DNA of 64,000 nt from Rhodamnia argentea. Its lineage: Eukaryota > Streptophyta > Magnoliopsida > Myrtales > Myrtaceae. The notes beneath the pieces are model-generated. The model searched no databases. It worked only from the letters and a program-made list of their open reading frames with translations, and had not been told where the DNA came from. Below, piece by piece: positions 5,441-61,480 of this stretch (position 1 is its first letter; every line of letters begins with the position of its first letter). A program made the position numbers and the translations under genes. The stretch lies in contig NC_063152.1 in the NCBI RefSeq assembly GCF_020921035.1, positions 9,066,001 through 9,130,000 of the forward strand, read 5' to 3'.

Positions 5441-5521
5441 TGGTATCGTAACGACCAGTAGGATCCTTGAAAATACCAACGCTATTTATTCTCTACCATT
5501 TTTCCATCTCTCCTATTCACA

Positions 5522-6639: not shown

Positions 6640-9215
6640 TGTAACACCCTAGAATTTTGTGAGCTCAAAACAAGGATATTATGAAGGCGGACCCACTTTA
6701 TCTCTTAAGCTTTCTTTGGTCAAATTTGGCAACTCCTTTCTCCCTCTCTCTACCACCTTCCACTCTCTCTTTCTGCCGCCCAAGTACACGTACACCCTTC
6801 TTTCCCCCTCCTTCTCAACCGACTTGCAGCAGCCCTTCTTTTTCCTCTTCGTTCTTCATTTTTCAACGACAACACCCACTCCACGAGCTACCAGGGAAAA
6901 CTACGACATTCATAGGACTTCCTCGACCGTCGCCAATCGTCCGTCACCGCCGCAGCTCGCCGGAGAGCGGGAAAACCAGAAGCTCAATCCGGTTCCCCTG
7001 TTTTGGGGCCGGTTCTGTGCGAGCTGAAGCTCGCTGGTTCCACCACCTCCAGCTCCCATCTCCGGCCACTTGCAACCTCCTCAGACACCCTGCGATGTGT
7101 CCCAGCAGCCGCCGCCCTTAATCCCGCCGGCCACAGCCCCGAAACAGCCCAAAATCGTTCCTCCCCTGCTGCGGTACATTGCAGTTTTTAAAGACTGACT
7201 TGGAGAAACAGAGCCCGTTCGCATAGCATACGGACCCGAAACCACCCCAAAATTTGTACACACCTTCCTCTACCTCTCTACGACGTTTCCATCTAAAGAA
7301 AACCCCCAGATCAGTCCTCGAAATTGAAACTGTACACGTCGCCGTCCGGACTGCTCAATCTGCCCTGTTTTCGGAGAAACCGGACTGTTCTGCACCGTTG
7401 TTGTTCGGTCGCCTCCGGCCACCATCCGCCGCCCCTAGCTGGTCCCGAAGGTCATCATCGACCTGTAGGTGAGTCCCCCAGCCTTCCCCAACCTCGCCTC
7501 AGCCTGTGAGATCGTTTTTCCCCCAAATTCAGCTCGGTTTCCCCTGTTTTTACCTTCGTCGGTTCTGTTTTTCAGCTTCCGTCGCTGGTCGGACCTCCAA
7601 TCGCTGAGCTGCTGCCGTTTGCAGCGATTTCACCGCCGAACTCGTCACTATTTTCGGTCGTGAACAGTGTCGCCGGAACAGTGTTGCCGGTGAACAGTAT
7701 TTTCCGGCGTGAATAGTGAAATTCGGCCCCGACCTCGAAAATCGTGCCCGACCCGACCTTGACCACCGTTTTTGGTGAGTTGACCTATAATCCTTGATTA
7801 GGTCTTTAATTACGTTTGGATTAGTCTTCCTGTATTATTAAGCGTTTAGGTAGTTCGATTAGGGCCGGTTAGGCGAGGAAGTGGATTTAGGTTAAATAGC
7901 CCTAATCGGTTGGGTTAGTCATATTTATGGCTGTCTGATTGAGATTGCTTATTTTGTGCTTGGCCTTGCTTGATAGTGAGCGAAGGATTGATTAGCCAAG
8001 AGCGATCGATTAGTTAATAATTGATTAACGATAATTTTTGTTGTTATGGATTTTAGTTGACCTAGTCGATTTGGGTTCATATTTGACTTGATTTATTAGC
8101 ATGGATTGCCTATAAATAGAAGGCCATTGACTGTCATGATTGCATGATCGTTTGATAATTCTCCATCATGTATTCACATGCAAAAGCTGGTAGATAGCAA
8201 TATGCATTCAATTGTTCGTGGTGATGCACACAGCATGAAAATGGCCTGTGGTCAAGTTTTGGACATCCGGTTATAATTTAAATAAAGTAAGTGGAATGAC
8301 TAATGGATGAATTGAGTGATCACATAATGGATGATGATTCGTGGCCTGTCAAGTTCGTATCGTATCTTTTTGTACGGATCACACGACTTGTCGGTTGCCC
8401 GACCTTTCATGTCGAGTCATGGATTGTCGGATGCCGGTCGCAGCTTGTGACGGACCGAAGCCCTTTAGGGGAATGCCTACTTGAGATATCGAGTTATCGC
8501 TTGTGGTTGCCGTCGCCGAAAGGAGTCGGGACGATGCCTGTTTATCAGAAGTCGATTCCGGCATTGTGTTGTGCGGGTCGAATTAATGGACCCCAGCATT
8601 GCGTTGTATGGATCCAAAGAATTTCATTCACGAAAATCATCATTAATAAATGGACTACGTGTGATGTCCAGTGTTGCTTTATGGTTGAGTATACCATGGT
8701 TCTTGATTGCCTCGATGATCGTCTCGAGTTGGCATGGTCTCACGTTATATTCATGGTGCACATATGTATGACTTAATATCAAGTAAGTTGCATGTGATTG
8801 ATATGAATGTGTGATTGCCCGATATGGTATCTGGACGAATCATTGCCCTAGTCGAGGCTTAGGCGTTGACTCGCTGGGATTTTTATCTCACCCCTTTGTG
8901 GGAACATTTTTCAGGTCCGAGGTGATGAAGTTCGTAGGCTGGGAGCCGTTGACTCTTTTTGGAGTAGATGAGGATTTGACCTTGCGTTGTCTGTAGCTCT
9001 ATAGGGCTAGCTATTATCTAATAGATATGTATTTTGATATCCTACTGTTACGGGTGCTATGTTTGACTATCCCCGTTGTTTTGTATGGTTGGGAGTTTGT
9101 TCGTTTCCGCATGTGCCATATGTTATCGTGGGTCGATAGCGTACCTGGGACGTTATCATTATGACCCGAGGCGATTTGGTAGGGATATTACGTACCCGAG
9201 GGTCGGGGCGTGACA
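6640..9215 (+). repeat. 5' LTR of the gypsy chromovirus
   Basis: 2576 bp, TG...CA. The first 1.1 kb is C/T-rich and the last part AT-richer. A TATA-like CCTATAAATAG lies at about 8109. Apparent short reading frames in both LTRs are identical because the LTRs are; none shows a known domain and they should not be annotated as genes. Confidence 0.96.
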
Positions 9216-12200
9216 TCCCCGCCCGAAGTGGTATCAGAGCAGGTCAGCCTGATTCACCCGGTCATAGGTTTGGAGTAATAAGGAGCGATGGGGAAATTAG
9301 GATAGTTAGTAGGATTATACGATTAGTGCATGTGATTGCTGTTTGTTAACTTAATAGTTTGAGTTGTTCTTATCGTGCTTTGCTCTGGGGTGAGCAGGAC
9401 TCCGTATAATACCTGCATAATGAGCGAACGCGGTGGAAGAGCACCTCGAACTAGGCCTGTCGGGCGATTGAGGATCAATGAGATTGATGAGACCTCGGGA
9501 GCTGGAAGACCACCTCGAGCTAGACCTGAAAGGCAAGAACCAAGGGTCGATGAGACCTTGGAAGGTGAAACGCCACCTCAAGCCCCACCTGAAAGAGGTC
9601 CAAGGATGACTGATGACATCCTTGCTGCACTTGGGGAATTGATAAGCCAACGAGTATGGAGTCAAAACATTGCTACAGAGCCATCTCAAGTAGGTCCTTC
9701 GGCCGTTATGGTAGAAGGTACTCCGATGCATAGACTGGTAGAGTCTTTCCTGAAGTTGAAGCCACCAAGGTTCGCAGGAGAAGGCGATCCTGAAGTTGCG
9801 ACCCAATGGATTATGGATCTAGAAAAAGTGTTCGCCTTACTACGATGCACCGATGAAGATAAGGTCACTCTGGCTGTTTATCGGATGCAAGGAAATGCGA
9901 GCCATTGGTGGAATGCATCCAAAGGACGAGTCTTCCCTCAAGGTACAACTTTTAATTGGGATAAGTTTGTGGAAGCTTTTTATAACAAATATTTCTCGGA
10001 CACGGCGCGAGAAAGGAAACTGAATGAATTTATGAGCCTGCGCCTGAATCAGATGACCGTGGATCAGTACGAGGCAAGATTTGCTGAGTTGTCTCGATAT
10101 GCTCCACGAATGGTCGAAAACCCCGAAGACAAGGCCAAAAGATTTCGGGACGGACTGAGGCCCGAAATAAGGGAAGTACTGTTGCCTTTTAATTTGAAAG
10201 ACTATAATGAGCTGTATGAGAGGGCTTAGTTGGTAGAAAGGGGTATTAATGAAAGAGCTGCCACTGCCGGTTCAAGGTTTGCTCGTGCCGGAAGAGACAT
10301 TAGGCAAGGCAAGAGGTCGATGCCTGGTAGCGGGACCTCTATCCCACCAAACAAAGCTGGCGCCATTACTAAGCCGACCTATTATCAAAATGAGGATTGT
10401 CGCATTTGCCGTCGAAGGCATAGGCCAGGCCCGTGCCCTATGAGAACTGGAGCCTGTTTTGGATGCGGTCAAACTGGCCATCAAGTGAGAGATTGCCCGC
10501 AACGCCAAGGGAGTAGGCCACGGGGAGGGCAACCTGGAGGAAGCGCACCACGTAACACTCGGAATCGACCTCCAGCTCAAGGAAGGGTGTTTGCGGTCAC
10601 TCGAGATACGGCGAATGATTCGCCAACCGTGACAGGTACGGTCCTTTTACATAATCAAGCTGCATACGCTTTGTTTGATCCTGGTGCGACACATTCATTT
10701 GTGGCTGAACAATTTGTTAAGCTAGTTGACTTGGAAACGAAGCCGTTGGATACGACATATAGGATTTCTACGCCCTTACAAGATAGTGTAGTGGTTGCTG
10801 TAGGCTGCCCTGGATGTAAACCGGTAGTAAGTGGTCATGAGGATAGGATAGATTTGATTATGCTGGAAATGTATGACTTTGATTTGATAGTCGGAATGGA
10901 TTGGCTGAAGAAACAGAGGGCGATAGTGGATTGTCATCGTAAGGTGATTCAGTTTAATCCTCGGGATAGTGCTAGTTTTGAATTTGTGGGTAATCAAGGA
11001 GGAACCTCGACGACGATGATATCGTCCCTCGAGGCGACTAGATTATTGGAAGATGGGTGTTATGGTTATTTGGCGTCGGTGGTTGATACCTCTATTGAAG
11101 AGCCTAAGCTGGAAGACATACCAGTCGTACAGGAGTTCCCCGATGTCTTTCCTAAAGAATTGCCAGGCTTACCACCGGAAAGGGAAATTGAATTTGTGAT
11201 TGAATTGATTCCTGGAACGGAACCAATCTCCAAGGCGCCATATAGGATGTCATTGTCTGAACTTAAGGAACTCAAGGTTCGGATGCAGGAGTTACTGGAT
11301 AAGGGATTTATCCGTCCTAGTGCATCGCCTTGGGGAGCACCTGTATTGTTTGTAAAGAAGAAAGATGGATCGTTGCGGTTGTGCATTGATTATAGACAAT
11401 TAAATCGAGTAACAATCAAGAATAAATACCCGTTACCAAGGATCGATGATTTGTTCGATCAATTGCAAGGAGCTTCAGTATTTTCTAAGATTGACCTAAG
11501 GACAGGGTACCATCGGTTGAGAATTAGGAAAGAGGATATTCCTAAGACGGCATTTAGGACGCGATATGGACATTATGAGTTTACTGTGATGCCGTTCGGA
11601 TTGACGAATGCTCCTGCTGCTTTCATGGATTTGATGAATAGGGTATTTAAGGAATTCTTGGATCGTTTTGTCATTGTATTCATAGACGATATTTTGGTGT
11701 ATTCAAGAAGTCCCGAGGAGCATGAACAACACTTGAGGATAGTATTGGAAACCCCGAGGATACATCAGTTGTATGCCAAATTTAGTAAATGCAAGTTTTG
11801 GTTAGCTCGCGTGGCATTCCTGGGCCATGTGATTTCTGGAGATGGCATTGCCGTTGACTCTGCCAAGATCGAAGCAGTTATAAATTGGCCAAGGCCTACG
11901 ACGGTGACCGAGATTAGGAGTTTCCTAGGATTGGCAGGCTATTATAGGCGATTTGTGGAAAGATTTTCTGCTATAGCCTCGCCTTTGACACGACTACTTA
12001 AAAAGGACACGAAGTTTGAGTGGACAGAAAAATGCGAGCGTAGTTTCCAAGAACTCAAGCATAAGTTAACTACTGCTCCTGTCTTAACAATTCCATTTGG
12101 TCCTGGGGGATTTGAAATTTATAGTGACGCTTCGCATAGGGGACTGGGTTGCGTCTTAATGCAGCATGGAAGAGTAGTGGCATATGCCTCTCGGCAATTG

Positions 12201-14060
12201 AGACCTCACGAAATGAATTATCCAACGCATGACTTGGAGTTGGCTGCAGTTGTGTTTGCCTTAAAAATTTGGAGGCATTACTTGATTGGAGAAAAATTTC
12301 AAGTGTATACTGATCATCGAAGTTTGAAGTATCTATTCTCACAGAAAGAATTGAATATGAGACAACGCCGATGGATGGAGTTGCTTAAGGATTATGACTG
12401 CGAGATCCTATACCATCCGGGTAAGGCGAATAAAGTCGCAGATGCCTTGAGTAGAAAATCGGGGATTGCTCAATTACATGTTAGTGAATGGCGTTTGCTT
12501 GAGGAAGTTAGGGATTCTGACTTTAAGTTGGAAGTAAGTCGTCCGTCGAGTCTAATCGCCACCTTGAGAATTGAACCGGAAGTGCAAGAGAGGATCAAGA
12601 CCTTGCAATTAACGGACCCCACCGTCCAGAAGATCCTGCAAGAAGATTCGGCTAAGAGAAGTGCCGACTTCCATGTAACCAATGACGGAATTTTAAAGTT
12701 CCGTGGACGTTTAGTTGTGCCTAACGACAAGAGGCTAAGGGAGGACATCTTGTCAGAGGCACACCGTAGTAATTATAGCATCCACCTTGGAAGCACTAAG
12801 ATGTACCAGAATTTAAAACAACATTATTGGTGGAGTGGCATGAAGGGAGACATAGCTAGACACGTGGCGAAATGTCTGACTTGTCAACAGGTTAAGGCAC
12901 AATATTGTAAACCTGGAGGATTGTTACAGCCGCTGGAAATTCCTGAATGGAAATGGGAGCATATCACAATGGATTTTGTGATGGGATTACCAAGAAGCCA
13001 GCGCGGACATGATTCAATTTGGATCATAGTGGATCGATTAACGAAGTCAGCTCACTTTATCCCGGTTAGAAAGGATTTCGCCTTAGATAGATATGCAGAT
13101 CTCTATGTGAGGAATATTGTGAGATTGCATGGAGTTCCTGTGACTATCACGTCAGATCGTGATCCTAAGTTTACTGCTACTTTCTGGAAAAGCCTACAAA
13201 CCGCTTTGGGGACGAAGTTGCAGTTTAGTACGGCGTATCATCCGCAGACGGATGGTCAATCCGAAAGGATAATTCAGACGCTCGAGGATATGCTACGAGC
13301 TTGTGTCCTGGACTTTCAAGGTAACTGGGAGGAACAGTTACATCTAGTTGAATTTGCCTACAACAATAGTTATCAGCAGAGTATTCAAATGGCACCGTTC
13401 GAGGCATTATACGGTAGGGCTTGTAGAACACCATTGTGTTGGGATGAAGTGGGCGAAAGAAAAATTATAGGCCCTGAACTAGTGCAACAGTCAATGGAGG
13501 CCGTCAAGCTCATTAGAGATAGGCTGAAGACAGCACAAAGTCGTCAGAAAAACTATGCCGATAGAAGACGTAGACCTTTGGAGTTTCAGGTAGGTGACCA
13601 TGTCTTCTTGAAAGTGTCGCCAATGAGGGGAACGTCTCGCTTTGGCAAGAAAGGAAAGTTAAGTCCGAGATATGTGGGACCATTCGAGATATTGGAAAAG
13701 ATTGGGAATTTGGCATATCGCCTTGCTTTACCGCCGAAACTTGCTCGGGTTCATAATGTGTTTCACGTTTCGATGTTGAGGAAGTACGAACCAGACCCCG
13801 CTCATGTACTAAGCTATGAAGAGATCGAATTGGACGAGCGAGCATCGTACGTGGAACATCCGGTCAAGATCGTGGATCGAAAAGAGCAAGTGCTCCGAAA
13901 TAAGACGATCCCGCTAGTTAAGGTAATCTGGCAACATCACGGGACTGAAGGAGCAACCTGGGAAAATGAAGAGGTCATGAGGCGTACTTATCCAAGTCTT
14001 TTTGAGGAAATGTCACTGTAGTTAAATTTCGAGGACGAAATTTCCTAAGGTGGGGAGAAT
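9216..14060 (+). other. Gypsy internal region: gag, protease, RT, RNase H, integrase, chromodomain
   Basis: Domains by approximate position: gag capsid 9.74-10.2 kb; CCHC knuckle [14 protein letters not shown] about 10.45-10.5 kb; aspartic protease about 10.65-10.95 kb (ATHSFV); reverse transcriptase 11.2-11.95 kb with the catalytic FIDDILVYS; RNase H 12.1-12.45 kb (IYSDAS); integrase with an HHCC zinc finger at 12.75-12.9 kb (CLTCQQ) and catalytic core 12.95-13.45 kb; a C-terminal chromodomain-like segment at about 13.85-14.0 kb ([17 protein letters not shown]). The chromodomain assigns it to the chromoviruses, which tend to target heterochromatin. Fossil; nearly whole. Confidence 0.93.
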
Positions 14061-16669
14061 TGTAACACCCTAGAATTTTGTGAGCTCAAAACAAGGATAT
14101 TATGAAGGCGGACCCACTTTATCTCTTAAGCTTTCTTTGGTCAAATTTGGCAACTCCTTTCTCCCTCTCTCTACCACCTTCCACTCTCTCTTTCTGCCGC
14201 CCAAGTACACGTACACCCTTCTTTCCCCCTCCTTCTCAACCGACTTGCAGCAGCCCTTCTTTTTCCTCTTCGTTCTTCATTTTTCAACGACAACACCCAC
14301 TCCACGAGCTACCAGGGAAAACTACGACATTCATAGGACTTCCTCGACCGTCGCCAATCGTCCGTCACCGCCGCAGCTCGCCGGAGAGCGGGAAAACCAG
14401 AAGCTCAATCCGGTTCCCCTGTTTTGGGGCCGGTTCTGTGCGAGCTTAAGCTCGCTGGTTCCACCACCTCCAGCTCCCATCTCCGGCCACTTGCAACCTC
14501 CTCAGACACCCTGCGATGTGTCCCAGCAGCCGCAGCCCTTAATCCCGCCGGCCACAGCCCCGAAACAGCCCAAAATCGTTCCTCCCCTGCTGCTGTACAT
14601 TGCAGTTTTTAAAGACTGACTTGGAGAAACAGAGCCCGTTCGCATAGCAAACGGACCCGAAACCACCCCAAACTTTGTACACACCTTCCTCTACCTCTCT
14701 ACGACGTTTCCATCTAAAGAAAACCCCCAGATCAGTCCTCGAAATTGAAACTGTACACGTCGCCGTCCGGACTGCTCAATCTGCCCTGTTTTCGGAGAAA
14801 CCGGACTGTTCTGCACCGTTGTTGTTCGGTCGCCTCCGGCCACCATCCGCCGCCCCTAGCTGGTCCCGAAGGTCATCATCGACCTGTAGGTGAGTCCCCC
14901 AGCCTTCCCCAACCTCGCCTCAGCCTGTGAGATCGTTTTTCCCCCAAATTCAGCTCGGTTTCCCCTGTTTTTACCTTCGTCGGTTCTGTTTTTCAGCTTC
15001 CGTCGCTGGTCGGACCTCCAATCGCTGAGCTGCTGCCGTTTGCAGCGATTTCACCGCCGAACTCGTCACTATTTTCGGTCGTGAACAGTGTCGCCGGAAC
15101 AGTGTTGCCGGTGAACAGTATTTTCCGGCGTGAATTAATGTTAGGCGAGGAAGTGAATTATTTTCCACTTCCTCGCCTAACAGTGTCGCCGGAACGATTT
15201 TCGGCCCCGACCTTGACCACCGTTTTTGGTGAGTTGACCTCTAATCCTTGATTAGGTCTTTAATTACGTTTGGATTAGTCTTCCTGTATTATTAAGCGTT
15301 TAGGTAATTCGATTAGGGCCGGTTAGGCGAGGAAGTGGATTTAGGTTAAATAGCCCTAATCGGTTGGGTTAGTCATATTTATGGCTGTCTGATTGAGATT
15401 GCTTATTTTGTGCTTGGCCTTGCTTGATAGTGAGCGAAGGATTGATTAGCCAAGAGCGATCGATTAGTTAATAATTGATTAACGATAATTTTTGTTGTTA
15501 TGGATTTTAGTTGACCTAGTCGATTTGGGTTCATATTTGACTTGATTTATTAGCATGGATTGCCTATAAATAGAAGGCCATTGACTGTCATGATTGCATG
15601 ATCGTTTGATAATTCTCCATCATGTATTCACATGCAAAAGCTGGTAGATAGCAATATGCATTCAATTGTCTGTGGTGATGCACACAGCATGAAAATGGCC
15701 TGTGGTCAAGTTTTGGACATCCGGTTATAATTTAAATAAAGTAAGTGGAATGACTAATGGATGAATTGAGTGATCACATAATGGATGATGATTCGTGGCC
15801 TGTCAAGTTCGTATCGTATCTTTTTGTACGGATCACACGACTTGTCGGTTGCCCGACCTTTCATGTCGAGTCATGGATTGTCGGATGCCGGTCGCAGCTT
15901 GTGACGGACCGAAGCCCTTTAGGGGAATGCCTACTTGAGATATCGAGTTATCGCTTGTGGTTGCCGTCGCCGAAAGGAGTCGGGACGATGCCTGTTTATC
16001 AGAAGTCGATTCCGGCATTGTGTTGTGCGGGTCGAATTAATGGACCCCAGCATTGCGTTGTATGGATCCAAAGAATTTCATTCACGAAAATCATCATTAA
16101 TAAATGGACTACGTGTGATGTCCAGTGTTGCTTTATGGTTGAGTATACCATGGTTCTTGATTGCCTCGATGATCGTCTCGAGTTGGCATGGTCTCACGTT
16201 ATATTCATGGTGCACATATGTATGACTTAATATCAAGTAAGTTGCATGTGATTGATATGAATGTGTGATTGCCTGATATGGTATCTGGACGAATCATTGC
16301 CCTAGTCGAGGCTTAGGCGTTGACTCGCTGGGATTTTTATCTCACCCCTTTGTGGGAACATTTTTCAGGTCCGAGGTGATGAAGTTCGTAGGCTGGGAGC
16401 CGTTGACTCTTTTTGGAGTAGATGAGGATTTGACCTTGCGTTGTCCGTAGCTCTATAGGGCTAGCTATTATCTAATAGATATGTATTTTGATATCCTACT
16501 TTTACGGGTGCTATGTTTGACTATCCCTGTTGTTTTGTATGGTTGGGAGTTTGTTCGTTTCCGCATGTGCCATATGTTATCGTGGGTCGATAGCGTACCT
16601 AGGACGTTATCATTATGACCCGAGGCGATTTGGTAGGGATATTACGTACCCGAGGGTCGGGGCGTGACA
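14061..16669 (+). repeat. 3' LTR of the gypsy chromovirus, with a palindromic patch
   Basis: Near-identical to the 5' LTR except for about 14 substitutions and a rearranged patch at about 15134-15200. The patch contains an inverted repeat with 16-bp arms (GTTAGGCGAGGAAGTG and its complement). The arm sequence also occurs once, ordinarily, about 170 bp further on in both LTRs (7869 and 15323). Confidence 0.96.
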
Positions 16670-19600
16670 CTTCATGTCACTACCATTACGCGTAATTTGC
16701 TTTCTGTTCGCAATTTTACACGTGATAACAACTGCTTCTTTGAGTTTCATCCATTTCACTTTGTTGTGAAGGATTTGCAGACCAAAACACCACTGCTCCA
16801 AGGTTCGCTTAAGGATGGACTATACCGGTTGCCAGGTCTTTATGCCTCATCTCCATCTGCCAACACCATCTCACTTGACTCTTCCGCCACCGCCACTACT
16901 TGGCATGCCCGAATGGGTCATCCCCAACAAAGCAAAGTGCGCTCATTGATTCATTCAAATAATTTGCCATGTTCTACATTTGATTTCAATAAATGTGCTT
17001 CTTGTTTGTTAGGCAAATCTCATAAAACACCTCTACCTCTAACTCATAGCATTAGTAAAGCGCCTCTCGATTTAGTATTTGCTGATCTATGGGGACCTGC
17101 TCCAATTGATTCCATTTCTTGTTATAAGTACTTTGTTATACTTGTTGATGATTTCTTGAAATATACTTGGTACTATCCTATTCAAAATCGATCTATGGTC
17201 CCTTCTATTTTTGAAAAATTCAAGACTATGGCTGAGAAACAATTTGAAAAATCCATCAAAGCTGTACAGTCTGATTGGGGTGGTGAATATAGAACCCTAA
17301 ATAAAATTTTTTCTAACAATGGAATTATCCATCGTGTAGCTTGTCCACACACTCATGAGCGAAACAGAGCAGTTGAGTGAAAAATTAGTCATATTGTTGA
17401 TATTGGCCTTACATTATTGGCTCATGCATCTCTTCCTCTTAAGTATTGGCCTTATGCTTTTGAAACCACCATTTATCTTATTAACAGATTACTAATACCA
17501 GTTTTAAATAATATCTCCCCTTTTCAAACGCTTTTTAATCAACAACCGGAATACAAGTTTTTGAAAATATTTGGTTGTGCTGTTTTTCCTTTATTAAGGC
17601 TATACAATTCGCGTAAATTTTCACTCCGTTTTACTCAATGTGTGTTCTTAGGATATAGCCCATTGCACGTTGGTTACCGTTGTTTACATTACAAAACTAG
17701 ACGCATGTACATTGCAAGACATACTCATTTTATTGAAAATATTTTTCCATTCACTACATTTGGTTCACATACTTCAAAAATACTCTCACCATCATATCCT
17801 TGGCTGACGATCTCCACGGCTAGTGTGTCCTCCCACGCGAACCATGGTGCTAATGGTAATATCCTGCCTTCTACGCCATCATCTAGCACTGCCCCACCTA
17901 TCTTTGAAGAACCATCACCGACATTATCAAATACTAATACTACTTCAACGTCTAACACATTGGTTTCTAGTCCGCCTAATGATGGTACAGGTTCTAACGA
18001 GAATCTTTCGGATGCCTCCCCACCGCAAGCTATTTTAATACCTCCACAACTGGCCTATCAAGCACCAAGGACCCATCCAATGCGGCTGCGTCAGAACCCA
18101 AAGCGCAACAGTAAATATCCATTACCAGATGTGAACTTGACTGAAAGCTGTTCTAAAGAAGAACCACGGTGCTTCACCGAAGCTAATAAACATGAAAAAT
18201 GGAGGGAGGCGATGCTTCAAGAATTTAATGCTTTGTTGCGTAATGGAACATGGGTTTTGGTTCCACCGAATCCCAAAGCAAATGTCATGGGCTCCAAATG
18301 GGTTTATCAAGTCAAGACACGTGCAGATGGCTCGATATATCGATATAAAGCCTGTCTAGTGGCCAAGGGCTACAATCAGCAAGAGGGTATTGACTATACG
18401 GAAACGTTTAGTCCCATCGTTAAAGCAACCACCATCCGTACAGTTATTTTATTGGCGGTGACAAGGAATTGGAAACTCCGGCAATTGGATGTTAGCAATG
18501 CATTTTTAAATGGTAACTTGACTGAAGAAGTCTGCATGGCCCAACCTCGGGGCTTCATTGATTAAAAAAAGCCAAACCATATATGCAAGCTACAAAAATC
18601 CTTATACGGATTGAAGCAAGCACCGCAGGCTTGATTCCACCGATTGAGCATCTTTTTAGAAACACTAGGATTTATCGGATCAAAAACCGATACTTCCCTC
18701 TTCATACTACATCGGCCCGATTTCTCCATTTACATGCTTATCTATGTTGATGACATTGTTATTACATGATCAAACTCGACATTTATTCAAGACACTATCG
18801 AACGCTTGAACAAATAGTTCTCCATGCGGGACTTGGGTGACCTTAATTATTTCCTGGGAATTGAGGTGGTCAAACATCCATCCGGGCTCCTCTTGTCAAA
18901 ACAAAAGTATGTTACAGATCTCCTCCACGGAACCAGAATGGACGATATTAAACCGGTTCACACACCCATGGCTACAAATACCAGTTTAACAATCAAGGCA
19001 AGCCACTTGAAGATGCCGGTTTATACGGGAGCACCGTAGGAGCTCTTAAGTATGCCACCCTCACTCAGCCAAATATCTCCTATGGGGTAAATAAAGTCTT
19101 CCAGTTCTTGAAAGAACCAACGGAAGACCATTGGAGTGCGGTGAAACGCATCCTACGCTATTTAAAGAAACCATTTCACATGGACTGCTTATCGGTTCTC
19201 AATCCTCCACAGAACTCCATGCATACGGTGATGCAGATCGGGCAGGTTGCCCCACCGATAGACGATCAACATGAGGCTATGCAATTTATATGGGCCAAAA
19301 TCAAATTTCTTGGTCAGCTAAGAAGCAACATACCATTGCACGTTCCTCAACCAAATCCGAGTATCGAGCATTGGCAAATGCCACAGCAGAAGTGGTATGG
19401 CTACAATCGTTGTTACAAGAATTGGGCATCTCTCACTCAAAACCCCCTATCCTTTGGTGCGACAACCTAGGGGCAACGTATCTTATGGTGAATCAAATTT
19501 TTCATGCTAGAACAAAGCATATCGAGGTAGATTTTCACTTTGTCCGCCATTTAGTGTCACAACGCAAACTTGAGGTTCGCTTCATATCCACATGTGACCA

Positions 19601-30207: not shown

Positions 30208-30379
30208 CCTCGTGCGAGAGAAAAGAGTGTGTGTTGAAGAGCGTCGAGCACGAGCCGTGACAGATTTCTCGAGGGGTCGCCGGCGAGTTGAAATCTGATT
30301 TTTCCAACAAGTGCATAGGCCGCCAATGGGCCAAAAGAAAGGGCAAGTAATAAGGCAGCTTTTATGTGGCTAGTTGCGA

Positions 30380-30745
30380 TACATTTGCTCTAATTTTTTT
30401 TATGACACAAAAAATCTTAAATTTATATCCATATAATACATTTATCTCAAACTTTTACCCATGTGACATATTTACCCCAAAATTTTTATTATGACACCAA
30501 AAACCCCAAACTTGTAGGCATATGACACATTTATTCCAAATTTTGAGGTAAATGAGTCACGCGAATACAAGTTTAGGATTTTTGATGTCATAAAAAAATA
30601 ATTTGAGATAAATATGTCACATTGGTATAAGTTTAGGATTTTCGGTGTCATAAGAAAAAGTTTGGGATTTTTTATGTAACAAAAAAAAATTTAGGGTAAA
30701 TGTATTACAGTTGATATAATTTAGGGTAAAAATTTATGCAAGTAA
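30380..30745. repeat. Foldback (inverted-repeat) element, copy 1
   Basis: AT-rich sequence in which units of the form 'TGACAcAAAAAATCccAAACTTnTAnCCATaTGACAcATTTAcCC' run in one direction up to about 30540 and in the opposite direction afterwards, meeting at AAATTTTGAGGTAAAT. It is thus a palindrome made of tandem subunits of roughly 60 bp. It lies between the promoter side of WD40 copy A and copy B. No coding capacity. Confidence 0.75.
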
Positions 30746-46138: not shown

Positions 46139-48329
46139 TTAAAAGGACGTCTCTTTGAAAGGATGATTGAATATAACTTCAGCATTTCGGGAAGCTCTTC
46201 GATAGCTGAGCACTTCTTGCATCACGCCAAGTAGTTCCGAAAGAACAGGGTCTTGATGGCGCTCTTGTCCATATTGTGAAGGCAATTCAGCCTTGATAAT
46301 TAACTTCTCCAGCACAAGTGCATCCCCAAGAAGAAACTTCATCAAGGCGAGCAGATATTTCGACCGAAAACTATTAGCTTGAAAGCCGATGATCTCAACT
46401 CGTTTGAGATGTTTCGCCAAACATTCAAAGTTCCCCTTCCTTGCACACAAAAAATCTTCTTCATCATAGTTAAAACGATCTTTAGATTCTTCATCAAGCT
46501 CAAACTGCACATGAACCCCCATTTAAGAAACTTGCTTCCCATTAGATGTGGGTCCACGAGGAAAAGAAAATCCATTAGCTCACTAAAATTTCAAACACAC
46601 AACCTTCATTTATCCACAGCAAATGCTAGTTAGTTTTACTTTGTATGGAGTCTTAATCAATTTGAGCTCTTAAACTCGTCCACACAACAAAATATCTTCT
46701 CTTTCTAGGTGCTCATCGCCACCCTATTGGTTCAACGTCCAAACCTACATGGCAGCCAAAGAACCTCCAGTACAACATTGCAGTTACTTTAGAAGTGAAC
46801 TAAAACAGCTTAAAGTTGTCCAGTACAGATGTTGAGTAGACCGACCGAAGTTAGGGGCAATTTTCAATTTCTAAAACGAGTAAGAGTCTGAATTCGATCT
46901 TCTTTATGTGCTTCTGAAGTTTTAACTCACCGTTTAAATATTTGTGCAAAAAAAAAAAGTCGGCACAAGAAGCGAACTGAAAACATCATGGCAGAGGAAC
47001 AAACCTGCAAATTGGTGAAGCCAGCCAGGCGTATGACTAATTTTTCCAGGCATGGTGAACTTCGTAGTAGGTGCACTATCCCAGGAAGGTCCCAACGAGA
47101 GACTGGTGCATTTAGTGTCAAATTCCGACATTTTGACAATGGAGAATGCACTCCTTCCATCTCCCAATAGGACAAAATCTAAGCACAATGAGCAAGCAAA
47201 AGAGAAAATTCTGATCATTGTTTGTTTTCCTGCTTAAGGTGAATAAAGACTAACAAAATCTACGGTCCATCCAAATACTGTATTCCTTGATCCTGTCTCC
47301 CGCGAAGAATTCACAATGATTCCTCTTCAGAGCACGTCTTATAAAGGGTAAAAAATACGGAGCTCGTACCTGCAAACACGAACCACCTGTGGCGAGTGTA
47401 GGAACTCCGCGCAACTTCTCAAGGAGTCCCTTTAAAAGGTCCCGTATCCTCTCCACATGAGACATACTAAAATATAAGATACGAAGATATAAGTTGGCTT
47501 CGACCAAAGAGGATACGTCGTCAAGTCTGAACACGGAGTCGTGTGGCGAGAACCCCGACACCCGCAGTGACAGCAAATGAGGGGCCCAAAGATTCTCCGC
47601 GTTAGAGAACAAGGAGGGAACGAGTAGCAAGTCCTTCACACTCGTTGAATCTATTCTGATGTTCTTCACGCCCTTGCAGGAGTCTAACTCGAGGGACTCT
47701 AAAACAGGACTTCCCCTGAGAATTTTCTGGAGGGAATGATCGCACAACTCTCTATGTCTTATTGACAAGACCTTAAGACAAGGCCACCGAATACTAGTAC
47801 CCAACGAAAAACAGCAGTAAGAGACCTCCAGGCGTACCAGGCAAGTCAGGCGACTCGCGAACCGCGGCAGCGTGTACAAGAACGGCGAAGCAGTCAGCCC
47901 CAGGCAGAGATCCTCCACGCGGCGCGCCATCGCGAAGCGGAGACAGAAGTCGAGCTTGGGCGAGTTGGCTTCGTCGTACACGAAGCCAGTGACGTGGAGC
48001 CTCTTCACCGTGGGGGAGGTGCTCTGGATCAGGACGCTGTTGACGAGGGACAGGAAGTCGAAGGAATAGGTTTCGTGATTGCGAGGCCGGTCTCCGTTGA
48101 AGACGAAGTGGGTGGTGGTGGTCCAAGTGGACTGCCACCGCTTGGAGAGGACGCTGGTCTTGACGACGTCTTGGAGGGGCAGGAACGAGAAGATGTGGTG
48201 GATTACGTCGTTTGGCAAGGCGCCGATGAGATCGCTGGGGCTCAAAGGAGGAGGAGGTTGGCTCCTGCGATTCGGGCTATCGCCAGAGGATTCGCGGTGG
48301 ATGTCGCCGTGCACGGAGGTCTCCGCCAT
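46139..48329 (-). CDS. F-box/LRR/FBD protein, locus FBD-3, intact
   Basis: Three exons, GT/AG bounded, all phase 0: 48329-47370 (960 bp), 47178-47005 (174 bp), 46504-46139 (366 bp); predicted 499 residues. F-box near residues 30-70 (DLIGALPNDVIHHIFSFLPL, VVKTSVLSKRWQSTW), which in this family binds SKP1; LRR-like repeats in the middle (SIRWPCLKVLSIRHRELC, GSPVLESLELDSCKGVKNI, WAPHLLSLRVSG); FBD domain in exon 3 (FECLAKHLKRVEIIGFQA, LVLEKLIIKAELP), stop TAA 46139. The start MAETSVHGD matches FBD-1 (MAETSVHGG) and FBD-4 (MAGANVHGA). An in-frame upstream ATG would add 29 residues but is not shared, and a duplicated CCGCCATGGAATAT puts a second, out-of-frame ATG just upstream. Presumed SCF ubiquitin-ligase substrate adaptor; target unknown. 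The only FBD locus here without a visible lesion. Confidence 0.9.
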
Positions 48330-48796
48330 GGAATATGTATGCGTTCTCGGTCGAGTCCGCCATGGAATATATGCTTTCGAGGCTCTTGACTTTTGCGTTT
48401 TATATTTATATGGCATAATTTTATTTTATTTTTTTGTGTGCGTATTTCTCTCTTTTTCAATATTTATAAGAATTTTTGTTTTGTGACCAAGCGAGTGCTC
48501 AATGGTCAAGTAATTTTCCCACGTGGAATCAGAATACTCCAGAAAATTGTTACGAATATTGATCCAAAGGTAAACAGGAAGAAGCATAATTCTTTCGTCA
48601 TGCTAACGTGGCATTCAATTAAAAGGAAAAAAGTGATAAACCTAGTAATCCTTTTGTAATAAGAATCTATATTATTATCCACGAAATAGTTATTATGGCA
48701 AAAAAAGGGGTACTATTTCAATCTATTATAGGTAACATATCCATCACGTGGTGGTATTTATGTGACGGCCATATTTGCCTAAATAATAAAAAAGAT
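48330..48796. other. Spacer upstream of FBD-3
   Basis: AT-rich 5' flank of FBD-3. Apart from the duplicated ATG context at 48324-48366 nothing specific is seen; a TATA-like TTATATTTATATGG lies near 48399-48412. Confidence 0.45.
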
Positions 48797-49776
48797 AAAT
48801 ACAATCAAAAATCCTAAATTATGCACAATGTGACACGTTTACCCTAAACTTTTTTTGTGACATCAAAAACTCCAAACTATACCCATGGTGACACATTTAC
48901 CCTAAACCTTTTTTTTTTTTTTGTGACACTAAATATCCTGAACTTGTACCATTGTGACATTAATTTTCCAGTTAAAAGCAGCAATTAAAAATATAACGAA
49001 AATTCAAGGTGGCGTTGATATGGCGCCATGCAAGTGTCACATTAGAAAAACGTAAAAAAGAAGAAGGAAAATCTGAAGTTATTATTCATCGTCTTCAACA
49101 TTCGAGTTCCTCAGGCACTTGTCCATCCACTACCCACTTCTATTTGGAGACACCGCTGGAGTGAGATACGATCGATGCGATGATTCCTGGCACTTTCCAA
49201 AATCATTTCTGATTGTTGATTTGGTGTTTTAGGTGCCTGTGAACGATGAGCTCATTTGGGACAATGGGACCGCATTCCTTGAGCCCTGCATTGATTGCAT
49301 CACCGATACTGTTGGAAAGTTTGGGATTTGTTTGTTCTATGGGATGGACGTTTTTCATGATGGATGCCTAATTGTCAAAATCCTGCTTTAAGATTAAATT
49401 TGGAATAGATCTTAGCCTGAGCAAGGCCGAGAAAAAGGAAAGGATTGTGTGGCTTAGCTCAGTATTAAATTGTGATTTACAGTATGAAGCATTGGCTTGG
49501 CTTTGTGGAGGTTTGAATTTCTCCTGCAATTTGGCTTCAACAAGGGCCAGCCCGACCTCCTCCAATTCAGGCCCTCCTTGGATTCACATTATACTTTTAA
49601 CTGGAAGGTAAATGTGTCACAATGGTATAAGTCCGGGGTTTCTAGCGTCACAATGAAAAATCTAGAGTCAATGTCTCACAATGGATATAGTTTAGGATTT
49701 TTGACGTCCACAAAAAAAAAAAAACAGAGTAAATGTGTCGCGGTATGCATAGTTTAAGGTTTTTGACGGTATTTTT
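48797..49776. mobile_element. Foldback element carrying a captured host-gene fragment
   Basis: Inverted arms at about 48797-48975 and 49605-49776. Left termini read AAATACAATCAAAAATCC; the complement of the right end reads AAATACCGTCAAAAACC, and both continue into the GTGACACnTTTACCC subunits typical of this family. The 630-bp interior is non-repetitive and contains an intron-split gene fragment (next entry). A 9-bp match AAAAAAGAT lies near both ends but the sequence is low-complexity, so it is weak evidence for a target duplication. Confidence 0.7.
49233..49535 (+). pseudogene. NDUFB8: Captured fragment of mitochondrial complex I subunit NDUFB8/ASHI-like gene
   Basis: Exon a, 49233-49318, after a good acceptor (GTGTTTTAG): VPVNDELIWDNGTAF, then EPCIDCITDTVGK. 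Intron 49319-49482 (GTTTGGG...TTTACAG). Exon b, from 49483: YEALAWLCGGL, then similarity is lost. From memory of the plant family these two blocks are consecutive in the intact protein (a matrix-facing accessory subunit of NADH dehydrogenase). Because an intron is retained, it was copied from genomic DNA, not from mRNA. The exon-a donor is slightly out of phase with exon b, so it is already eroding. It is enclosed by the arms of a foldback element. Confidence 0.65.
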
Positions 49777-49814
49777 TCTTTAAAAAAAAAGATTAAAGAT
49801 ACTAAAAAGAGAGG

Positions 49815-50398
49815 GGTGATTACCACGAAAAATAACAAACTGGTACATCAGTATAAATTTACCCAAAATTTTTTTTTACCACAAAAAATCTCAAACTGGT
49901 ACACATATAAGAAATTTATCCTAAATTTTTTTTGGACCACTAAAAACCCTAAATGGGTACACATTTGATAAATTTACCTCAAATTGGTACACCTATGACA
50001 AGTTTATCATCCATTAATTTTTATTAAATTTCATCATCAAATTGCCTAGTTGGATGACACGTGATAATTGCCGAATGTACACGTTTGGGATTTTTATCCT
50101 ATGTTTATCGGATATGTATCAATTTGGGGCATTTCGTGATATTAACTCAATTAATGGAAACTAACAGAGGGTAAATTCGATACAATTGTACTAGTTTGGA
50201 GTTTTTTGTGGTTGAAAAAATTAATTTGGGATATATTTATCATGGGTGTACCAATTTCGAGTTTATTGTAATAAAAAAAATAATTTGGATAAATTTGTCA
50301 CGGGTGTACTTGTATGGGATTTTTTATTACCATAAAAATTATTTAGGGTAAACTTGTTACATATGTGCCGGTTTAGGATTTTTTGTACGTTTAACTCA
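49815..50398. mobile_element. Foldback element with possible 9-bp target duplication (MULE-like)
   Basis: Left arm 49815-50035 (units ACCACnAAAAATCTCAAACTGGTACACAT...AAATTTACCC), central 120 bp, right arm about 50160-50398 in reverse orientation, ending ...TTTAACTCA. Flanked by AAAGAGAGG at 49806-49814 and again at 50399-50407. A 9-bp duplication is characteristic of Mutator-like elements. No coding capacity, hence non-autonomous. Related to, but a different subfamily from, the neighbouring GTGACAC foldbacks. Confidence 0.65.
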
Positions 50399-52398: not shown

Positions 52399-52853
52399 AA
52401 AAGACTAGGGAAAACACCATAAAAAACCCTAAACTATACCACTGTGACACATTTATCTTAAACATTTTCTTGTGATACCAAAAATCCTAAACTTATACCC
52501 ATATGATACATTTATCCCAAATATTTTTTTTTATGACACAAAAAATCCCAAACTTATACTAATGTGACATATTTATCCCAAAATTATCTTTTTGTCACAC
52601 AAAAAAATCCCAAACTTATAGGCATGTGACTCATTTACCATAAATTTTGAGGTAAATGTGTCAAAGGAATACCGATTTGATATTTTTAGTATCACAAAAG
52701 AAGTTTGGAGTAATGTGTCGCACTAGTATAAGCTCGGGTTAAATGTATCACATGGATAAAAGTTTGAGGGTTTTTTGTCCCAAAAAAAATTTAGGGTAAA
52801 TGTGTCACAATTGGTGTAATTTAGGATTTTTCATAGCTTTTCCCTAGTCTTTT
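52399..52853. repeat. Foldback element, GTGACAC family
   Basis: Perfectly inverted outer ends (AAGACTAGGGAAAA at about 52401 and its complement TTTTCCCTAGTCTT ending 52853). Inside them lie about four subunits in one direction and three in the other, meeting at AAATTTTGAGGTAAAT (about 52640-52655). It ends only 27 bp before the acceptor of an FBD exon 2 (52881), i.e. it lies in the former intron 1 of FBD-6. Confidence 0.8.
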
Positions 52854-54975: not shown

Positions 54976-55405
54976 TGTAAATGCAGTGTATATAAAATCC
55001 TAAACTATATCCATTGTGACACATTAACTCTAAAAATTTTATGTCACATAAAAAACTCTTGAATTTTTATTCATATGATACATTTACCCCAAACTTATAT
55101 CAGTGTGTCGTATTTACCCTAAACTTTTTTTGTGACATTAAAAACCCTAAACTTGTATCCGCGTGACATATTTATCTTAAAATTTAGGGTAATGAGTCAC
55201 CCGCCTACAAGTTTGGGGTTTTTGTATCACAAAAAAATAATTTGGGATAAATGTGTCACATTGGTATAAGGTTGAAATTTTTTGTGTCATAAAAAAAATA
55301 TGTCACACGGATACAAGTTTGGGGTTTTCGGTATTGTAAAAAAATGTTTATGGTAAATGTGTCACAGTGGGCATAATTTAGGATTTTTGGTGGTTTTTTT
55401 TCAAT
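54976..55405. repeat. Foldback element, GTGACAC family, inside the inverted duplication
   Basis: Subunits (AAAATCCTAAACTATATCCATTGTGACACATT...) run forward to about 55185 and backward from there to 55405, meeting at AAAATTTAGGGTAATGAGTCAC. It sits in the spacer between the two arms 54355-54975 and 56040-56580. Confidence 0.75.
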
Positions 55406-57968: not shown

Positions 57969-60329
57969 TCAGCTCACACTAAGTACTTTGAAAAGATCAG
58001 CGGTCTCTAGACGTTTTTGTCCATGTTGCGCATGCAAATCAGCCTTGATAAACATCTTCTCCAGCTCAAGTGTACCACCAAGGAGAAACTTAATCAGGGC
58101 CAGCAGATGTTTCGACCCAAAACTATTAGCAAAACCGATGATCTCCACTCTCTTGAGATGTTTTGCCAAACATTGAAAGTTTCCCTTCCATGAACGCAAA
58201 AGATCTTCTTCGTCAAAGTTAAAACGTGCTTCAGATTCTTTGTCAACCCCAAACTGCACATAGTTAACCATTTAAGAAACTTACTTCAAATTTGATGCGG
58301 ATCCACGAAAAAAAAAGCCTCACTAAAATGTGAAAAAAAAAAAACAACTTTCATTAGTCCATCTAAGATGATAGTTCTAGTTCATATCGAGTACTAATGA
58401 ATTTGAACTCTTAAATATGTCTACACAATGAAACATCTTCTCTTTCTAGGTACTTATCGCTAACCTATTAGTTCAAGATCTTAACGCTGCATGGCAGCAA
58501 AATAAAAGAACCTCCAGTGTGAAACTGCAGTTACTTCTATTTTTTTGGGTCAAGACACTGTAGTAACTTCAGGACATGACCTAAAACAGCCTAAGGTGGC
58601 CCTGCACAAATGTAGATTATGCTGACTAAGTTACTTTCAAATTTCAGTTGTTGGAATAAGTAAGGGTTCGAGATCGGTCATCTTTATGTGCTTCTAAAGT
58701 TTTAACTCACTGTTTAAACATTCATGTATAGAGGAAGTTAGAACAAGAAGCGAATTGAAAATATCATACTGAGGGAACATACTTTCAATAGGGAGAGGCC
58801 AGTCAGATGTATGACTAATTTTTCTAGGCACAGGGAGCTTTGTAGCATGTACGCTATGCTAGGAAGGTCCCATTGACAAACTCGTGCGCGTAGTATCAGA
58901 TTCTGACAATTTGACAATGGAGATAGCACTCCTTTCATCTCCAACACGGACAGAATCTACGCACATTAAACAAGCAAAATAGAAAAATTAATTAGTATTT
59001 ATTTTCCTGTTTAACTTGAATAAAGAATAACAAAACATCCTTTGACCCTGTCTCCCAATCGGAAAAGGACCTGTAAGGATACTAAAGGAGAAATGAACAT
59101 ATGAATCTCTTTAGGAATCGAGACTATTTACATAAAACTTGTGACACTTGAAGGATCTGTTAATTCTAGTAGTTTCACTTGAGACAGCAAACCACGTTAT
59201 TGACTGAAGTTTCCAAGAAAATCCATCCATTGCCTCTGTAAAATATTCTGAGAATACTATTCTGTAAGATTATTATGGAACAGCAGCCTAGTGTGATGAG
59301 AGAGTAAGACTAATCACGGACATCATTCAACACGAGCACATCTTATAAAGGTAAAAAGTACTGAGCTGGTACCTGCAAACACCAACCGCCAATGGTGATC
59401 TTAGGAACTTTGCGTAGCTTCTCAAGAAGTTTCGTTAGCAAATCACAGCACATCCTCATGTGACCAGGCACATCAAAATCTATCTTGGCTTCGACCAAAG
59501 AAGATATATCGTCAAGTCTGAACACGGAAGAAAGACGACCTGATACACGCAACGACAGCAAATGTGGAGCCCAAATTTTCTCCGTGTTAGAGAACCTGTC
59601 GCCGATGAGCACCAACTCTTTCACACTCGTCGAATCTATGATAATGTTCTTCACGCCCCTGCACCAATGTAACTCAAGAGACTCTAAAACAGGACTTCCC
59701 CTGACAATTCTCTCTAGGACATCATCACTCAACTCTGAATATTCGATCAACAGGACCTTAAGACAAGGCCACCTAATGGTAGTACTCAACGAAAAACAGC
59801 ACAAACCAACTTCCAGGCGCACCAACCAGCTCAAGCAATACAAGAACGGCGGCAGTTTATACAAGAACTGCAGCCCAGTAATCAGAAGCAGGCGAAGATC
59901 CTCCACGCGGCACGCCTCCGCGAAGCGGAGCCAGAGGTCGAGCTTGGGGCGGCAGGCCTCGTCGTACTTGAAGTGGGTGATGTGGAAACTCTTCACCGAG
60001 GGCGAGGTGCACCGGATCAGGACGCTGTCGACAAGGGACAGGAAGTCAAAGGTGTAGGTGCCGTGATTGCGACGCCGGAGTCCATGGAAACCATGGAAAA
60101 CGAGGTGGTTGGTGGTGGTCCAAGTGGACCGCCACCGCTTGGAGAGGACGCTGGTCTTGACGACGTCTTCGAGCAGAAGGAATGAGAAGATGCAACAGAT
60201 CACGTCGTCTGGCAAGGCGCCAATGAGATCCCTAGGCCTCAAAGGAGGAGCTTGGTTTCCTTCGGTGCGACTCGGCCGGTCGCTGGAGGATTTGCGGTGG
60301 ATGGCGCCGTGGACGTTGGCCCCCGCCAT
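57969..60329 (-). CDS. F-box/LRR/FBD protein, locus FBD-4, C-terminus shortened
   Basis: Exons 60329-59373 (957 bp), 58956-58783 (174 bp), 58253-57969 (285 bp to the first stop); 471 residues. Start MAGANVHGA chosen by similarity to FBD-1 and FBD-3. F-box DLIGALPDDVICCIFSFLLL, then VVKTSVLSKRWRSTW; LRR-like TIRWPCLKVLLIEYSELS, GSPVLESLELHWCRGVKNI, WAPHLLSLRVSG; FBD FQCLAKHLKRVEIIGFA, LELEKMFIKADL. After FKVLSVS a TGA (57969-57971) replaces the Arg codon present in paralogues; the frame remains open behind it (NVLSYRRASQNAEVIF), so 26 residues are lost from the end. All splice sites are sound. It may still make a working adaptor, since most of the FBD domain is retained, or be an early pseudogene. 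Confidence 0.82.
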
Positions 60330-61480
60330 GGATTTGAAATTCTGGGGTTTCCGCGGATGTTCCCCCGAGCTTTCCAAGGTTTTTGCTTTTTCTTTTTTCT
60401 TTCTACCCTTTCCCTCTTTATTCTAATTTCTGCAAAACTCAATTTGATTAGATCAATTAGTTATTGATTCGATTTGGAATATATATTTTTTCCTCTTCGA
60501 TCCGATTTCCTATCCTTTTTTAAAAACGCTGTCTTATCCTTCAATTTTTTTATACTCATTCCATTTTTAGGCTGAAAATTTTCTTTATCGGAAATTTTCT
60601 CTTTCTAGTTATTTATGCAAGCATGACTGAATAATGAATCTGATTGCAAAAAAAAATTAGAAGATTTCAATGGAAGGAGGAGTAAAATTAAACTTATGCT
60701 TAGAGAAAAAAAATGTATTAAGAAATCGACTTACGTGATACACTAACTCATTCGATATTTTCTTTATTTTTTCATCCCCTTATAAATGTGTGTTTCTCAA
60801 ACATCTAGGATAAAAAGATTCTTAATTTTGGCTTGGTATGCTCCTCGCTATTTTTGAGTTAGACAAAGGTTAAATGCACACCTCTCACCCTTTGATTTGC
60901 GATATGAAATAACATCGAATTAACAGTAACGATTTTGTGAATATAAAACTAAACTCAGAATGAATACGGGAGAGATATTTTTTATTTGATGTGCAGGATA
61001 ATCTAAGAATAAAATTAGCAAGCTTGAAACTCTTTTAATTAGTTTAACTACGTGAAGATTAAATCCTAATATTATAATGCTGTTTCTTCGAATTATAAAT
61101 TTGATATGTAACTTACAAGTTACTCGCATCTAATTATAATCATAAAAGTAAGATTAGAACTATAATGCAATATCCGATGATTATAAGTCGGTCAAGAATT
61201 ATTACGACCTTTTAATATAAATTCTATCAAATTACTTTTAATGAGTGTCATAATACAAATCATGAACTATTAGTAGTTTTTGCAATAAATTATTATTTAC
61301 CCAGTATAATAAAATTCCCATTATTTAATTATGGCACTTAACATCTTCATTATTTGTGTTTAATAATCAAGTCATCTTATAATTTAATTTTCACTTAATT
61401 GAGTATTCTAAAATCCTAGTCTGGTTGCTCATCTACTGAGCATCATGCACTAGCTAACCGTAACATTAAATTAAAACGAA
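60330..61480. other. Spacer upstream of FBD-4
   Basis: Promoter side of FBD-4 (60330-60430, pyrimidine-rich on the plus strand), then AT-rich sequence. No gene or structured repeat recognised. Confidence 0.5.

Follow-up and report, generated by a model that had tools for sequence, protein, structure and literature searches.

A foldback-ended, Mutator-like transposon family of Rhodamnia argentea that carries intron-bearing fragments of NDUFB8 and other host genes

Contig C3 of Rhodamnia argentea (NC_063152.1) contains, within the 64,000 nucleotides analyzed here (the window; C3:9066001-9130000), a short element with inverted arms whose interior resembles part of NDUFB8, a nuclear gene for a subunit of complex I. 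The question is whether a foldback element has captured a piece of a host gene at this locus and, if so, to which class of transposons the element belongs. A sequence-only reading had proposed a foldback, as opposed to an ordinary Pack-MULE, that took up an intron-containing NDUFB8 fragment from genomic DNA, and had regarded gene capture by such an element as undescribed. Searches of the 346.7-Mb genome sequence support the capture. The most probable reading, at roughly 0.92, is that a non-autonomous, Mutator-like (MULE-type) transposon with foldback-style ends built of subunits took up host genomic DNA, and that the window element is a degraded copy of it.

The foldback element is non-autonomous and occupies positions 48793-49778 of the window (Table 1). 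An element is present where the sequence-only reading had placed it (48797..49776), but alignment of the family termini sets its left end 4 bp and its right end 2 bp further out. The two inverted arms were confirmed: 48793-48978 aligns with 49778-49594 in inverted orientation, with 73% identity over 188 bp (E 4e-26), and each arm of about 185 bp is built of about three imperfect subunits of 58-66 bp. The element thus has the long terminal inverted repeats of tandem subunits that mark foldbacks. Arms that nearly meet in mid-element, a further foldback trait, are found in L022-L028 (about 410-440 bp) and in the window at 52408-52845. The interior had been taken as a unique, captured gene fragment; this holds for the NDUFB8 fragment, but the stretch to its left is the family's own inner arm, and to its right lie a filler and a remnant of exon 1 of an XCT-like gene. 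The right-hand partner of the inner arm is missing from the window copy, and the end of the left one overlaps the NDUFB8 fragment by the common letters TTGGA (49144-49148). The termini of the window copy read AGATAAATAC / GAAAAAATAC. Its candidate target duplication agrees at best at 10 of 11 positions, with the termini shifted by 2, in A-rich surroundings, and is ambiguous.

Table 1. Parts of the foldback element and its candidate target duplications (window positions)
Feature	Position	Strand	Remarks
Left terminal arm, about 3 subunits of 58-66 bp	48793..48978	+	Terminus equals family consensus at 25/31 positions
Inner left arm, family-specific	48979..49148	+	On both sides in L012, L013, L014 and L016; left only in the window copy
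Captured NDUFB8 genomic fragment, part of intron 1 to part of exon 3	49144..49522	+	86% and 89% to C3:31049546-31049845
NDUFB8 exon 2 copy, open frame (VPVNDELIWDNGTAFLEPCIDCITDTVGK)	49233..49319	+	
NDUFB8 intron 2 copy, about 78 extra bases, damaged splice donor	49320..49482	+	
NDUFB8 exon 3 copy, start (YEALAWLCGGL)	49483..49522	+	
Short filler, 17 bp	49523..49539	+	Common to L012, L014, L016, L009, L010 and L011
XCT/FAM50-like exon 1 remnant, 29 bp	49540..49568	+	97% over 29 bp; donor C11:21276101-21276359
25 bp between XCT remnant and right arm	49569..49593	+	Sequence
Right terminal arm, about 3 imperfect subunits	49594..49778	-	
Candidate left target duplication, A-rich, hence weak	48783..48792	.	
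Candidate right target duplication, A-rich, hence weak	49779..49788	.	

Four related subunit-type foldbacks are present in the window at 30379-30705, 49855-50395, 52408-52845 and 54994-55402, all without a recognized gene piece; the one at 49855-50395 lies directly beside the NDUFB8-bearing element. F-box genes (Pfam F-box, FBD-associated LRR) are located at 47250-48425, the neighboring ORF, and at 59343-60422, and belong to a segmental duplication array that covers C3:6.83-9.11 Mb. Seven flank copies in this array carry the foldback, and five further partial matches stop before it. Elsewhere in the window (5471-6652, 8300-8776, 9363-14021, 15754-16230 and 16637-18565) identical ORFs of 158 aa, at 8300 and 15754, bracket a gypsy-like gag-pol region with copia-like pieces on both sides. 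Judged by eye, a young gypsy element whose LTRs are nearly identical seems to have inserted into a copia element here.

The similarity of the interior to NDUFB8 holds in a search against the sequences of solved structures, in which the joined 40-residue peptide of the element matches the plant subunit in two complex I structures (E 4.5e-19 for 8e73 and 2.7e-18 for 7aqw). Pfam gave no match for the captured piece, but the full-length donor protein has no Pfam match either. An intact donor gene exists elsewhere: the interior matches C3:31049546-31049733 (86%, E 1.5e-56) and C3:31049764-31049845 (89%, E 2.1e-20), within a complete four-exon gene with GT-AG introns at C3:31.05 Mb, on the same contig and 22 Mb from the window. 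The 125-aa product of this gene aligns end to end with 8e73_B8 (NDUB8; E 2.6e-75). When the donor gene and protein were compared with the window by blastn and tblastn, significant matches were confined to 49144-49333 and 49442-49536, and no further NDUFB8 exon was found there. Neither of the two outcomes that had been named as speaking against capture, failure of the peptide match or an interior lying outside the arms with further NDUFB8 exons at this locus, was thus observed. The captured content amounts to about 380 bp and runs from within intron 1 through exon 2 and intron 2 into the beginning of exon 3; as the introns are kept, the copy was made from DNA and not from mRNA. The original proposal, that an element with long inverted repeats took up NDUFB8 sequence from genomic DNA together with introns, is accordingly upheld. 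The splice acceptor reported for the retained intron is present, but the splice donor is damaged (AAAG/TTTGGG as against AAAG/GTTGGG in the donor gene). The approximately 78 extra bases of intron 2 (about 49345-49430) are absent from the donor gene and from the copies on C1 and C2, and are present in the aligned C3 copies (window, L002 and L005). A degenerate tandem motif, 'tttcgtggcaaattt..cgacga', by eye a different type of repeat, was noted downstream of the intact donor gene at a distance of about 1.2 kb (L017 6890-7500).

The NDUFB8 piece is present in ten copies in the genome: seven on C3 (the window element included), one on C1 (L009) and two on C2 (L010 and L011). Unit and flanks recur together in all seven C3 copies (full-length others at 92-96%; one split by about 15.7 kb), and these common flanks identify the C3 copies as products of segmental duplication. 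L010 and L011 likewise share flanks. The C1 and C2 copies contain the same NDUFB8 piece and the same arms as the window element, and NDUFB8 exon 3 is fused to the second sequence at the identical point in all aligned copies (window, L002, L005, L009, L010 and L011; in L011, GGTTTGAGTTTCT is joined to CCTGCAATTTGGCTCC). Because the same NDUFB8-filler-XCT junction occurs on C1, C2 and C3, the simplest reading is one capture followed by movement of the loaded element. L010 owes its 4.1-kb length to a nested hAT-like element with a BED zinc finger (L010 2528-5460), which rules out an additional capture as the cause.

Movement of the family was assessed from target site duplications (TSDs). The 9-bp flanks at fixed termini agree at 8 or 9 of 9 positions in 12 of 16 relatives, while mismatched left-right pairs never reach 8 (0/240). 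The termini were placed by one consensus, and the 16 elements comprise 6 gene-bearing and 10 compact ones; L009 (no termini), L011 (a duplicate of L010), the window element, the C3 copies L002-L006, and L063 and L068 stood outside this set. Perfect 9-bp duplications abut the foldback termini of the gene-bearing L012, L013 and L014, and one of the 12 positive elements, L023, has a T run as its duplication. The four failures are three compact foldbacks of the window (2-3 of 9; two with a poorly placed terminus) and L016, in which 5 of 9 positions agree at the fixed termini and 8 of 9 after a 2-bp shift. Neither recognizable termini nor a TSD were found for L009 on C1, no TSD was found for L068, and L063 lacks the left terminus. 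The terminal inverted repeats (TIRs) are long and start with G, as in MULEs, with termini of the GG(G/A)(A/T)AAATACCA type in most copies. MULEs make target duplications of 8-11 bp, typically 9 bp, and such duplications are present in the relatives, the A-rich one of the window copy being ambiguous. The 9-bp target duplications and the mostly GG-starting termini are Mutator-like features, and the opposition of foldback to ordinary Pack-MULE in the sequence-only reading was a false choice.

When the joined flanks of six gene-bearing elements were compared with the same genome, 42 matches were obtained; 14 of these come from the flanks of the elements themselves or from the duplication that links L010 and L011. 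The remaining 28 matches, at 26 places, span the L013 junction; they are this numerous because L013 landed in another repeat. Four of these empty sites were fetched and carry the 9-bp sequence AAAATATTT once (two exactly, two with one difference). L013 carries an XCT exon-2 piece and no NDUFB8, so that these empty sites identify it as a gene-bearing foldback that has demonstrably inserted. No empty sites were found in the same genome for the other five gene-bearing elements, nor for the window element: its left flank has 12 matches, of which 7 extend to the element, in copies that carry it, and 5 stop at least 260 bp short of it.

Other copies of the same arms with different interiors, which had been suggested as a check, were found with XCT-like, HD-Zip II, amidase and small-ORF sequences. 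L012 (C5) and L014 and L016 (both C9) have the same arms and about 258 bp of an XCT/FAM50-like gene, comprising the end of exon 1, intron 1, exon 2 and part of intron 2 (in L012, 92% over 258 bp to C11:21276101-21276359). In all three the XCT piece is fused to an HD-Zip II exon-like piece (C7:11523266). The match is 79% over 70 bp in L012, and the gene copied may have been an HD-Zip gene other than L047. A further HD-Zip II exon fragment, which retains its splice donor (96% over 53 bp), lies between two arms in L063 (C11). L015 (C9) carries about 704 bp of an amidase gene, namely part of exon 1, intron 1 and the first bases of exon 2, with a donor at C7:23843959-23844676 (78% over 696 of 704 bp, E 4.9e-163). 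The small-ORF subfamily, with 12 copies at 92-100% (11 on C3 and 1 on C8), carries the 5' end of an ORF from C1:11108461-11108626 (80% over 174 alignment columns). In six of six members tested (L069-L072, L074 and L078) the small ORF has an intact arm on one side and an incomplete, inverted one on the other, the latter detected with a profile of eight arms at E 5e-24 to 1.1e-10. Enclosure by two arms therefore holds for the HD-Zip, XCT and amidase pieces, and the small ORF has one arm and part of another. In L081 (C7:15535501-15539200) the arms are 2.5 kb apart and mirrored matches occur on both halves, which makes it a long palindrome; within these roughly 2.5 kb, sequence common to other interiors is now part of long inverted arms.

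The identities of the donors are supported in Pfam by Amidase (2.6e-39) and HALZ (1.2e-10), and by a weak XAP5 match below the cut-off (E 0.046). Pfam detected no families in the XCT N-terminal part, HD-Zip exon 1 or amidase exon 1, and a PDB search with the XCT piece gave no match. The donor genes are presumably XCT/FAM50, OM64/Toc64 and HD-Zip class II. Introns were kept from three donors: intron 2 and part of intron 1 of NDUFB8, intron 1 of the XCT-like gene and intron 1 of the amidase gene, the borders of the latter two being judged by eye. The family thus shows the two features by which Pack-MULEs are recognized, genomic DNA copied together with introns, and host gene fragments inside the TIRs with an intact donor elsewhere (the NDUFB8 donor is complete, and there are further donors).

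The capture joins are of mixed character. In L012 both inner arm ends read ACTTCCGTTTGGA; at this end NDUFB8 (donor ..CTTGGAGACACC) is joined with TTGGA in common, and XCT (donor ..CGTGGATGAGC) with TGGA in common. The NDUFB8/filler join has CT in common, the exact overlap at the amidase joins is 1 bp on either side, or 5 bp on the right if one mismatch is allowed, and the HD-Zip and XCT donors both contain CCAGGAGCTC near their join. Such joins suit template switching during gap repair or replication, without proving it; template switching was also proposed for animal Pack-TIRs, with a median microhomology of 2 bp (PMC8277862). Capture would then occur by template switching during repair of a break or a stalled fork inside the element. 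The short shared sequence at the arm end (TTGGA, TGGA) would help some joins, others sharing just 1-2 bp, and the element would be mobilized in trans by a MULE transposase encoded elsewhere. A more tentative extension is that the hairpin-prone arm subunits stall replication and make the element a serial collector of exons. On this view, one lineage would have taken up genomic DNA probably first from the XCT-like gene, next from an HD-Zip II gene and last from NDUFB8, with a later piece partly overwriting an earlier one. XCT and NDUFB8 would both have entered at TTTGGA through 4-5 bases in common, and the chimera would have moved in the intervals. If this were true, foldback-ended MULEs would be a capture-prone class in plants.

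A source of transposase was sought with the PF10551 profile over the same genome, which yielded 474 candidates, 150 of them scored as MULE domains. Among these 150, none was found between family arms in a by-eye comparison with the known, incomplete set of arm places. The sole match within 0.5 kb of arms, at C8:8220351, was ruled out as an autonomous partner, since this MULE/FAR1-like sequence is the insertion target of a compact foldback. That foldback (L028 1811-2249; C8:8220.8 kb) lies in the MULE/FAR1-like coding sequence and is flanked by a perfect 9-bp TSD, TTCGATTTA.

Other origins of the arrangement were considered. A pre-existing NDUFB8 pseudogene might have been flanked by chance by two foldback insertions, with neither capture nor co-mobilization, and both the several foldbacks of the same type in the window (the four listed above) and the ambiguous TSD of the window element would fit such an origin. 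It is nevertheless highly improbable, as the fragment recurs between arms, its internal junction unchanged, at unlinked sites on C1 and C2, the NDUFB8 fragment begins exactly at the inner arm end (TTTGGA), where XCT joins in other copies, and the window has no other NDUFB8 exon. Helitrons have neither TSDs nor long TIRs; the present family has both, and the perfect duplications of L012, L013 and L014 directly abut the foldback termini of gene-bearing elements. It is therefore scarcely credible that the arms are incidental and the gene piece belongs to a Helitron or some other capturing element, although Helitrons are described as gene collectors (PMC13317346). For capture through RNA, with retroposition into the element, no points in favor were found; a processed pseudogene is devoid of introns, whereas those of three donors are kept here, and the chance of this origin is close to nil.

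It is also unlikely, judged from the sequences, that the captured pieces would be functional, for example as a source of small RNA or in chimeric transcripts that affect the donor genes. The inverted arms could give rise to hairpin RNA, and maize Pack-MULEs and Helitrons with captured pieces are described as siRNA reservoirs in PMC13317346; the gene piece, however, lies between the arms and not within them. The exons of the window copy are nearer to the donor than its introns, at 119/131 (91%) versus 127/158 (80%) positions (intron 1 69/80, exon 2 77/87, intron 2 58/78, exon 3 42/44). Constraint on the donor's exons would explain this difference, with which constraint on the copy is also compatible, though the difference is no proof of it. 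Against function stand out-of-frame joins (the NDUFB8 and XCT pieces of the window copy sit in different frames), a stop in exon 2 of the sister copy L011, and the deletion of 8 bp from exon 3 in both L010 and L011. Taken with the damaged splice donor, the out-of-frame join and the L011 stop suggest that the captured NDUFB8 piece is probably a passenger.

Pack-MULEs capture plant genes, and the Rhodamnia family acts like a Pack-MULE with ends built as in foldbacks. It resembles Pack-MULEs in its 9-bp target duplications, long TIRs, intron-bearing host fragments, multi-donor chimeras, non-autonomous nature and the multicopy spread of a loaded element, and differs in having arms of degenerate 58-66-bp tandem subunits that nearly meet in compact members. 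Tandem-TIR MULEs and Pack-MULEs of tomato and Arabidopsis likewise have extra TIR units at both ends and a captured gene fragment, according to PMC3310237, but what is duplicated in them is the entire TIR (more than 1 kb altogether), in contrast to the short minisatellite-like subunits of the present family. The Mutator/Foldback element Tm1 of Meloidogyne, as described in PMC3169594, shares composite subunit TIRs, 8-10-bp TSDs (in 45/53 complete copies) and compact MITE-like members. Its authors suggested acquisition of a host sequence (a histone hairpin); in distinction from the Rhodamnia family, a transposase-encoding member is known for Tm1, and no donor gene is shown for it in that account. 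Citing Windsor and Waddell (2000), PMC3169594 also attributes a transposase with a MULE domain to FARE, a plant foldback of Arabidopsis.

Gene capture by a foldback, which the sequence-only reading had taken as undescribed, is in its broad form already in print: Tan et al. (2021; PMC8277862) report Ssk-FB4 of Drosophila, in which the foldback FB4 has taken up the host gene Ssk and has TSDs of 9-10 bp, and call it a Pack-MULE. By that report, Ssk-FB4 resembles the present family in its repetitive long TIRs, in a captured host gene that was then transposed to several sites and in 2-bp microhomology at one breakpoint. It differs in being an animal element with one donor that is expressed and translated, as opposed to a plant family with several donors, all of them present solely as fragments in old, decayed copies. 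No plant foldback with captured genes was found by title or abstract among the literature matches listed, a set that mostly excludes subscription journals, and the word 'foldback' is absent from the texts of a 2026 review (PMC13317346) and a Pack-TYPE paper (PMC8903248). Foldback gene capture itself is known; what the present case adds is a well-supported, foldback-ended plant family with several recognizable donors and a readable capture history. It brings together foldbacks and Pack-MULEs, usually described apart, and the junctions of its captured pieces can be read. The mechanism of gene capture by MULEs was described in 2012 as 'yet to be understood' (PMC3310237), and in 2021 capture models were named as worth exploring in plants (PMC8277862). 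The Rhodamnia copies preserve different stages (arms with XCT/HD-Zip, arms with XCT/NDUFB8 and arms with amidase) and so provide a series in which gene capture by MULEs can be tested.
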